A stretch of 64,000 bases of DNA. Source: Oryzomicrobium terrae (GTDB taxonomy: Bacteria; Pseudomonadota; Gammaproteobacteria; Burkholderiales; Rhodocyclaceae). A program made the position numbers and the translations under genes. This document shows positions 34,825 to 38,189 of this stretch, piece by piece (positions within the stretch are counted from its first letter, which is position 1; every line of letters begins with the position of its first letter). The stretch spans positions 2,604,001-2,668,000 of the forward strand of contig NZ_CP022579.1 of assembly GCF_008274805.1 (NCBI RefSeq). Reading direction: 5' to 3'. The notes beneath the pieces are model-generated. The model made no database searches. It saw only the letters and a list, made by a program, of their open reading frames with translations, and had not been told where the DNA came from.

Positions 34825-35349
34825 TCAGGGCTGGTGCAAACTGCGCCGCGCCACCGCCACCAGGGCGGCCCCATAGGCGACATAGACCAGCAAGGACCAG
34901 TGCGCCATGGACAGCCCCAGCAACTCCCATTCCTTGCTGCTGCAAAAGCCCGTAGCGAGGAACAACCGGGGCCAGCGCTCGCCCAGCCATTCCACCGACT
35001 GCTCGATCAGGTTGGGCGGGCCAAAGCCGCATTCCAGGGCCGGATCGGCCATCCATTGCAGCCAGCCCTGGTAGCCCGCCGCGGCGATGCCGCCCAAGGC
35101 CGCCATCAGGGCGATCAGCAGCCCCCAGGGGCGCAACGGGCGCCCTGCCGCCGCCAACAGGGCACCGACGCCGATGGCCAGGTACAGCACCCGCTGGAAG
35201 ATGCACAAGGGGCAGGGGTTGAGGCGTAGGGCTTCACCCAGGACGATGCCCACGACCACCAGGGCGAAGGCACCGATGCCGAGAATGAGGCAGGCCGTGC
35301 GATCCGAAATACGGCCACAGAGACGGCCACAGAGCGACGACAGGGACAT
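34825..35349 (-). CDS. dsbB: Disulfide bond formation protein B
   Basis: A 174-residue membrane protein with four helices: about residues 18-38, 47-65, 72-92 and 145-165. The first periplasmic redox pair is in LNPCPLCIFQR. The second pair is in the loop ALECGFGP and ATGFCSSKEW. It re-oxidises DsbA and passes electrons to ubiquinone. The arginine after the first pair (IFQR), which helps bind quinone, is present. The ATG at 35349 has AGGAG 6 bp upstream; an earlier ATG at 35367 would add six residues. It is a single gene with no dsbA beside it. Confidence 0.93.
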   Translation of the reverse strand: MSLSSLCGRLCGRISDRTACLILGIGAFALVVVGIVLGEALRLNPCPLCIFQRVLYLAIGVGALLAAAGRPLRPWGLLIALMAALGGIAAAGYQGWLQWMADPALECGFGPPNLIEQSVEWLGERWPRLFLATGFCSSKEWELLGLSMAHWSLLVYVAYGAALVAVARRSLHQP

Positions 35350-35439
35350 GAATTCTCCTGGGAACAAAAAAACGGGCGGCCCGCGACCTGTCCAGGTCCG
35401 GTGCCGCCCGCAGTTTATGTCAATCGTGGAGCGGTCGCG

Positions 35440-36615
35440 TTACACCGCGTAACGGCGCAAGCGCAGAGCGATCTCCTCAAGTTGCCGGATACCGGAGGCC
35501 TCGGCACGCTGGCACCAGTCCTGGAGCTGCTTGACCAGCTGATCGGAAGAGGCGCTGGTGCGTTCCCACACCTGGGCCAGTTCGTCGCGCATGGCGTGTA
35601 GGGTAGCCAGAGGGCGGCTCTCCTTGAACAGTGTCTCCAGGGCGGCGCGGCGCTCGGCCCCCAGCTTGGCGGGATCGGCGTTGAGCAGTCCCGCCAGCCC
35701 CTTGAAGCGCTGCACCTCCTGCTTGCCGAGTCGCTGCTTGAGGGCCTTCAATTCCTCACCGTAGGTGCGGCGCAGGGAGGCGGCGTAGCGCGACAGCAGA
35801 TCGTAGCGATGGGTGATCACCGCCTGCAGGCTGTCCAGATCGAGCACGGGCTTGGGAGCGACGAAGCGGGGCTTGGGAATGACCTTCTTGATCGTCGCCA
35901 GCTTGAGTGCCGACAAAATCCGCAGGTACATCCAGCCCAGGTCGAATTCGTGCCACTTGGTGGAGAACTTGGCCGAGGTGGCGAAGGAGTGGTGGTTGTT
36001 GTGCAGTTCCTCGCCGCCGACGATGATCCCCCAGGGGATGAGATTGGTGGAAGCATCGGCGCAATCGAAGTTGCGGTAGCCCCAGTAGTGGCCCACGCCG
36101 TTGATGACGCCGGCCGCCCAGAAGGGAATCCACGCCATCTGCACGGCCCAGATGGTCAGGCCGATCGGCCCGAACAACACCACGTTGAGCACCAGCAGGA
36201 TGGAAACGCCCAACGCCGAATGCCGCGAATAGAGCTTGCGCTCGATCCAGTCGTCCGGGGTGCCGTGGCCGTAGCGGCGCAGGGTTTCCTCATTCTTGGC
36301 CTCGGCCCGGTACAGCTCGGCGCCTTCAAAAAAGACCTTCTTCAACCCCTTGGCCTGGGGACTGTGGGGATCGTCAGCGGTCTCGCACTTGGCGTGGTGC
36401 TTGCGGTGGATGGCCGCCCACTGTTTGGTCACCATGCCGGTGGTGAACCACAGCCAGAACCGGAAGAAATGGGAGACGACCGGATGCAGGTCCAGCGCCC
36501 GGTGGGCCTGGTGGCGGTGGAGAAAGATGGTGACCGCGGCAATGGTGACGTGGGTGAGGGCCAGGGTAACGAGCACATACCCCCACCAGGGAAGGTCCAG
36601 CAGACCGGAATACAT
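35440..36615 (-). CDS. Fatty acid desaturase with C-terminal transposase-like extension
   Basis: A 391-residue protein. Residues 1 to about 255 form an acyl-CoA/acyl-lipid desaturase with membrane helices and the three histidine boxes: HRHQAH (33-38), HRKHH (70-74) and HNNHH (205-209), plus NGVGHYWGYRNFDCAD (about 172-187). These ligate the di-iron centre that inserts a double bond, probably at position 9. Residues about 265-391 are extra and helical. Their pattern (LLNADPAKLGAERRAALETL, RDELAQVW, QDWCQRAEASGIRQLEEIAL) resembles the C-terminal end of ISL3-family transposases. That resemblance is my inference. The start ATG 36615 directly precedes the first membrane helix; an earlier start in frame would give a 23-residue prefix. 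Confidence 0.88.
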   Translation of the reverse strand: MYSGLLDLPWWGYVLVTLALTHVTIAAVTIFLHRHQAHRALDLHPVVSHFFRFWLWFTTGMVTKQWAAIHRKHHAKCETADDPHSPQAKGLKKVFFEGAELYRAEAKNEETLRRYGHGTPDDWIERKLYSRHSALGVSILLVLNVVLFGPIGLTIWAVQMAWIPFWAAGVINGVGHYWGYRNFDCADASTNLIPWGIIVGGEELHNNHHSFATSAKFSTKWHEFDLGWMYLRILSALKLATIKKVIPKPRFVAPKPVLDLDSLQAVITHRYDLLSRYAASLRRTYGEELKALKQRLGKQEVQRFKGLAGLLNADPAKLGAERRAALETLFKESRPLATLHAMRDELAQVWERTSASSDQLVKQLQDWCQRAEASGIRQLEEIALRLRRYAV

Positions 36616-36722
36616 CGACAACACCTTTCCGCCCGAAGGCGAAGACAAAAACAAGCCGCCGATTTTACGCGCCAACCCGGCCACTCACCGCCTGCTCCGG
36701 ACGAAGCATGACGTCGGGGCAG

Positions 36723-36761: not shown

Positions 36762-38189
<1,428 letters not shown>

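Follow-up and report, generated by a model that had tools for sequence, protein, structure and literature searches.

An ISL3-type transposase insertion domain at the C terminus of DesA-family fatty acid desaturases

In many Proteobacteria, double bonds are introduced into membrane lipids by DesA-type desaturases. The activity expected of this family, delta-9 desaturation of acyl chains in membrane phospholipids, has been reported for the Pseudomonas enzymes (PMC4975390; PMC10634369), and with a Pseudomonas member of 394 aa unsaturated fatty acids go up in E. coli, palmitoleic acid rising twofold at 15 °C (PMC4975390). Judging by this length, the Pseudomonas enzyme includes the C-terminal tail considered here. 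When a sister enzyme was modelled, residues 253-394 were treated as an extension and omitted because the template lacked them (PMC5863719). The joining of a desaturase to an ISL3-type tail is already known, as it is recorded in NCBIfam (NF049918, NF049919), and the name of NF049919, "DesA/ISL3 alpha bundle tail domain", indicates that the curators had already recognised the kinship. Neither this name nor the description gives borders relative to the DDE triad, a direction of transfer or a function, which are worked out or inferred here. Among open-licence papers, we found no published description of the architecture. The present analysis adds the identity of the tail as an insertion domain, the loss of its DxxH motif, the single clade formed by the tails, the likely ISL3 subgroup of origin and the losses of the tail.

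ISCth4 carries a helical insertion domain within its RNase H fold, together with a C/DxxH motif that matters for catalysis (PMC7780238). In transposases and RAG1, such domains are said, among other things, to bind partners, control multimerisation and contact DNA (PMC7780238). The passages on these domains make no mention of ISL3.

We analysed a window of 64,000 nucleotides from Oryzomicrobium terrae (contig NZ_CP022579.1, positions 2,604,001 to 2,668,000), whose desA gene lies on the reverse strand at 35440..36615, stop included. The open reading frame runs from 35440 to 36684 on this strand with a GTG start, and an internal ATG at 36615 gives a protein of 391 aa. This protein matches the DesA family model NF049918 over its entire length (641.6 bits against a cut-off of 400, profile positions 1-385 of 385). 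DesA of Pseudomonas (PA0286), a member of the same family, has the same three histidine boxes and the same C-terminal tail, with a full-length match. We saw no substantial difference between the window protein and this family, of which the gene is an ordinary member. Its closest relative among the best 80 named ones comes from an Azoarcus metagenome-assembled genome (68% identity), and the closest named ones are Betaproteobacteria. At E ≤ 0.001, desA is the sole match to PF00487 and the sole match to PF01610 in the 3.5-Mb genome, so that no second ISL3-type match was found in the genome from which the window was taken.

The desaturase core occupies residues 1-255 (35851..36615, reverse strand), within which residues 9-222 match PF00487 (FA_desaturase) above the Pfam cut-off (E = 2e-13). 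As originally predicted, it contains all histidine boxes. Box 1 (HxxxxH) is at residues 33-38 (36502..36519), box 2 (HxxHH) at residues 70-74 (36394..36408) and box 3 (HxxHH) at residues 205-209 (35989..36003), all on the reverse strand. The eight box histidines (H33, H38; H70, H73, H74; H205, H208, H209) are invariant in an alignment of 58 sequences, the window protein and 57 of its 80 named relatives. Searched against the PDB, the full DesA model matched solely four SCD1 chains at E ≤ 0.001; these matches concern the core and are uninformative on the tail. The histidine boxes and the similarity to SCD1 structures mark the core as being of the di-iron type, and the gene product is predicted from its sequence to be a DesA-type acyl-lipid desaturase.

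The end of the core had been put near residue 255. This is approximate, and conservation together with the predicted helices places the start of the tail nearer to 259-265. We define the tail as residues 265-390 (35446..35823, reverse strand), which match NF049919 over the full profile (117.3 bits against a cut-off of 30, E = 5.1e-34, positions 1-122 of 122). Residues 291-389 (35449..35745, reverse strand) match positions 100-196 of the 240 in PF01610 (DDE_Tnp_ISL3), with E = 2.6e-10 and 40.9 bits against a cut-off of 23. When the tail is searched alone, the E-value is 2.6e-11. The original prediction had judged the similarity by eye and named PF00487 and PF01610 as the profiles to search; both are thus matched above their cut-offs. 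The three stretches that it quoted, LLNADPAKLGAERRAALETL, RDELAQVW and QRAEASGIRQLEEIALRLRR, are all located in the tail, and the tail is helical as had been read from the letters, with seven helices predicted from residue 270 in an AlphaFold2 model. The model for complete ISL3 transposases, NF033550, is matched over positions 219-323 of 370 at 36.7 bits, far under its cut-off of 180, which indicates that the DesA protein is no transposase. Searched at E ≤ 10, the window protein gives no match to the PF14690 zinc ribbon or to the PF13542 helix-turn-helix domain.

Since library models may include DesA proteins in their training sets, we built an HMM from 33 ISL3 transposases without any DesA sequence and searched with Z set to 10,000. 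This ISL3-only HMM matched the window protein with E = 1.7e-9. All 128 DesA rows, which had been picked by core similarity and length with the tail left out of the choice (127 distinct), were matched at E < 1e-3, 125 of them at E < 1e-5. No match was obtained in 640 shuffled tails or in 41 rows of tail-less desaturases, seven of which are more remotely related and in which two genes occur twice (L150 in L259, L151 in L278). BLASTP with the window tail alone likewise reached single ISL3 transposases, down to E = 2e-9. The tail and a part of the ISL3 transposase are thus homologous. Both regions are short and all-helical, which could produce a chance likeness between two helical bundles, but this explanation is practically refuted by the E-values for PF01610 and NF049919 and by the ISL3-only HMM with its 0 hits in 640 shuffles. 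The proposal that the tail resembles domesticated mobile DNA is accordingly borne out by PF01610, NF049919, the ISL3-only HMM and a tree of the tails described below.

We then located the corresponding part of the transposase. The DDE triad of ISL3 consists of D157, D211 and E369 in the numbering of L129, an ISL3 transposase, and is kept in 33/33, 32/33 and 33/33 sequences, respectively. The window tail aligns to residues 259-350 of L129 and 234-348 of a second ISL3 transposase, L183. As the second aspartate is at 211 in L129 and 210 in L183, and the glutamate at 369 and 366, both alignments fall between the two. We also considered that the tail might be the transposase C terminus, as first proposed, and rejected this placement since in the alignments the tail follows the second D and precedes the catalytic E. 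The kinship with ISL3 was therefore read correctly and the position was not: the segment is internal, and the tail is the all-helical insertion domain of ISL3.

Predicted structures agree with this assignment. In the AlphaFold2 model of DesA (mean pLDDT 81.2), the helices of the tail span residues 270-296, 298-304, 308-311, 320-332, 334-350, 357-373 and 377-386, and an additional helix at 260-268 follows the core. The model of L195, an ISL3 transposase encoded on a viral contig (mean pLDDT 88.5), has RNase H strands, then seven helices at 238-259, 262-269, 272-276, 284-296, 298-315, 319-334 and 339-350, then one more helix at 352-359 and the helix that carries E369. The seven helices have the same order and nearly equal lengths in both, as read from each model separately. 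In the DesA model, confidence is low around the third histidine box (pLDDT about 40, residues 191-224), so the modelled placing of the tail relative to the core is not to be trusted. The ISL3 model aligns to ISCth4 (IS256 family; Z = 14.7, rmsd 6.1, 298 residues) and to Hermes (hAT; Z = 10.4, rmsd 5.5, 240 residues), both of which have helical insertion domains. The Hermes match weighs less than that to ISCth4, since Z below about 13 is possible for common helical-bundle arrangements. We also looked by sequence for an ISL3 relative of solved structure and found none, the sole row at E ≤ 1 being an unrelated kinase chain (0.077). In ISCth4 and Hermes the domain lies inside an active transposase, whereas in DesA it is found on its own, as the last part of an enzyme.

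The tail shares with the ISL3 family (PF01610, NF033550), and with its ISVa10/ISAeme19/L129-like subgroup, the order of the seven helices and a significant sequence similarity, but it has no DDE triad, no DxxH and no match to a zinc ribbon or helix-turn-helix domain. Both ISL3 transposases that we scanned for these domains, L129 and L195, match PF13542 above its cut-off; PF14690 is above cut-off in L129 and slightly under it in L195 (24.2 against 25.5). The captured piece extends from about the DxxH to shortly before the catalytic E, and as a consequence none of the three catalytic acids lies inside it. Where ISL3 has the motif D-x-[F]-H, the window protein reads HRYD at residues 269-272 (35800..35811, reverse strand; placed by ISL3 alignment columns). 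The D and H are present in 35/35 ISL3 rows (33 distinct ones) and occur together in 0/128 DesA rows. An arginine at the column of residue 285 follows the same pattern, with 35/35 ISL3 rows and 0/53 DesA. The borders of the tail, like the loss of the catalytic motifs, are shown by computation, and the tail cannot act on DNA like a transposase. The inner leucines, W350 and W367 are largely retained. W367 opens a C-terminal signature at residues 367-389 (35449..35517, reverse strand) that comprises A371, E372, G375, I376, L379, I382, L386, R387 and Y389. Position 382 is F in most DesA and I in the window protein, and the signature is partly common to one ISL3 subgroup. Among the ISL3 transposases, L115 and L118 stand out by spacers of 277 and 320 residues between the second D and the E, as compared with 148-170 in the other 31.

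To place the tails relative to ISL3, we computed a tree of 53 of the 128 DesA tails and 35 ISL3 insertion domains over 127 columns, excluding L115 and L118 with their long spacers here and in the ISL3 core tree below. This tail tree is unrooted and has several long branches. All DesA tails form a single clade (99/93). Another branch (98/93) separates 27 ISL3 rows from the DesA tails together with eight ISL3 rows, hereafter the near ones: L185 (ISVa10), L184 (ISAeme19), L116, L117, L121, L124, L129 and L183. Mean identity to the DesA tails is 24.7% for the near eight and 15.7% for other ISL3, and BLASTP of the window tail reaches 7/8 near ISL3 and 0/25 of the other ISL3 searched at E < 1e-3. 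Residues of the C-terminal signature show the same division: L379 and F382 each occur in 7/8 near rows and 0/27 others, I376 in 6/8 and 1/27, and G375 in 6/8 and 2/27. The donor thus likely belonged to this ISVa10/ISAeme19/L129-like subgroup. As an observation on ISL3 elements within the order of Oryzomicrobium, one genome there (G224, contig C1) holds fifteen ISL3-like element copies with equal scores.

The unrooted tail tree shows two groups facing each other across one branch, which would also fit ISL3 having received its insertion domain from a DesA-like protein. We find this reversed direction highly improbable. The spacer between the second D and the E is at least 148 residues in all 33 ISL3, which come from Pseudomonadota, Desulfovibrionales, Actinomycetota and Bacillota, and ISCth4 and Hermes have insertion domains at the equivalent position, whereas DesA exceeds its cut-off in one class only, with phyla other than Pseudomonadota represented by control genomes only. 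In a tree of the ISL3 core with the insertion removed, the midpoint separates 15 rows, all of them far, from 20 others, the near ones among them (98/97), and is distant from the DesA-like subgroup. We used this midpoint, drawn for display, because no outgroup sequence of the ISAon1 family was found: 0/120 genomes reached the cut-off of that family. Rooted in this way, the DesA tails lie inside ISL3 diversity. Taken with the distribution, this makes it very probable that transfer went from ISL3 to DesA.

DesA exceeds the cut-off in 133/274 genomes of the class of the window. In a sample of 299 genomes of the phylum, for which the make-up by class is not broken down, 39 have it, all in this class; none of the control genomes outside Pseudomonadota does. 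All but seven of the class matches listed above the cut-off extend beyond profile position 380 of 385. The tail thus belongs to the whole DesA family and is a family trait. For the original prediction, which had read it as a fusion at this gene and asked whether related genomes conserve it, this means that the homology stands while the local fusion falls, the tail being normal in the family and named as such by NCBIfam. A local or recent fusion, or a mis-assembly, is likewise ruled out by the 133/274 genomes and by matches that mostly reach the profile end.

The seven shorter matches are of two kinds. Two run off contig ends (G060, G187), and five are tail-less (G026, G172, G121, G236 and contig C72 of G028). 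Natural tail-less relatives thus exist, and five of them, L143 to L147, are DesA-family desaturases without a tail. L143-L146 stop after the core, the third histidine box is kept in tail-less relatives, and no remnant of a tail was found in the six frames of 3.3 kb at each of these four loci. In two trees L143-L146 form a clade (100/94, 100/95) beside the tailed L177 (93/87, 99/94), indicating that the tail was lost at least once, unless recombination gave a tail back to L177. A second loss would be represented by L147. A further tail-less clade is found in the order of G041, where 27/112 genomes gave a fetched locus with at most 85 residues past the third histidine box. Two sequences of this clade branch first in one tree, with a value of 89/95 for the branch uniting the other 71 rows. 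With 15 such sequences in a second tree, the family root becomes a comb, with a very long outgroup branch of 3.71, and in neither tree had the bootstrap converged; the clade is thus a candidate for the tail-less sister of all tailed DesA, which a late gain of the tail would predict. Since tail-less relatives occur, the tail is dispensable for some enzymes of this kind. In the same order, some tail-less DesA-like desaturases carry a further domain at the other end: in L263 (688-2355, forward strand) and L266 (1372-3201, reverse strand) the N terminus matches PF04116, a fatty acid hydroxylase (E = 3e-27 and 7e-24, respectively), which makes two histidine-box enzymes per chain, and L265, L269 and L270 have frames of similar length.

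The tail appears to be kept under purifying selection. In 20 loci of Burkholderia, Paraburkholderia and Caballeronia, tail and core have median dN/dS values (Nei-Gojobori) of 0.137 and 0.105, respectively, over the 174 of 190 pairs whose dS does not exceed 1.2. A complete DesA with its tail (L289 and L290) is also encoded in two genomes from one genus that measure only 0.53 Mb (G563 and G571); these tails score 112 and 114 bits with a DesA tail HMM.

These results suggest how the tail may have arisen and what it may do. A DesA ancestor would have acquired the insertion domain of an ISL3-family DDE transposase in frame, and the captured tail would then have lost DxxH while retaining its packed helices. 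It would now be cytosolic and non-catalytic, binding a partner or holding DesA in an oligomer. On balance we think it probable that the domain now serves as an exapted accessory module for partner binding or assembly. A more detailed scenario, in which the domain was excised along its structural borders, fused once, stripped of DxxH and is now a docking or assembly module, has somewhat less than an even chance of holding in all its parts.

The most attractive partner would be an electron-donor protein, yet we consider this version of the accessory module unlikely. DesB requires DesC, its presumed partner in electron transfer. In P. putida F1, DesA did not restore the growth of a fabA mutant, and it supported such a mutant no better when DesC was added (PMC10634369); the passages on DesA name no donor. 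We found no ferredoxin or flavoprotein reductase gene beside desA in the window, and no reductase or ferredoxin among six neighbours elsewhere, a very small survey that took in one gene beside L149, a tailed gene truncated at the contig end, and five genes beside tail-less ones.

Alternatively, the tail could act within its own molecule, packing on the cytosolic face of the desaturase to stabilise the fold or shield the di-iron site with no partner involved. We hold this for doubtful while still a real possibility. The residues that DesA tails have in common with ISL3 (L311, L326, L336, L346, W350 and W367) look like the core of a bundle, and nearly all DesA matches over the cut-off in the class are full length with the tail included; on the other hand, tail-less relatives keep box 3 and, with just the core, reach scores above or close to the DesA model, and the DesA-conserved E372, R387 and Y389 are polar and may be exposed. 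Continued binding of nucleic acid, by which the tail would regulate the activity of DesA or its mRNA, is very unlikely. In most cases the tail carries a positive net charge (53 DesA: median +7, range -1 to +15), close to that of the ISL3 domains (median +6, range -4 to +15, n = 35), as such binding would lead one to expect, but DxxH is missing from 128/128 DesA rows, the arginine of column 285, common to all ISL3 rows, is absent from the DesA rows compared, and DesA is a membrane protein.

Identifying the tail as the insertion domain of a transposase provides it with a fold, an origin and surfaces that can be tested, and adds a further case in which a structural, rather than a DNA-cutting, part of a transposase was recruited, here into a lipid enzyme. 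If the accessory-module reading is true, this would represent a route of domestication in which a non-catalytic transposase part finds new use beyond DNA metabolism, with the tail as a possible docking site for the electron donor of DesA.

The genes beside desA find no match at E ≤ 1 in the 80 named loci, which extend up to 3 kb per side, in a neighbour search that does recover the window's own loci. In the window these genes, all on the reverse strand, are gdhA (NADP-glutamate dehydrogenase, 36762-38105), dsbB (34825-35367) and an acyltransferase gene (PF01757, 33516-34667).
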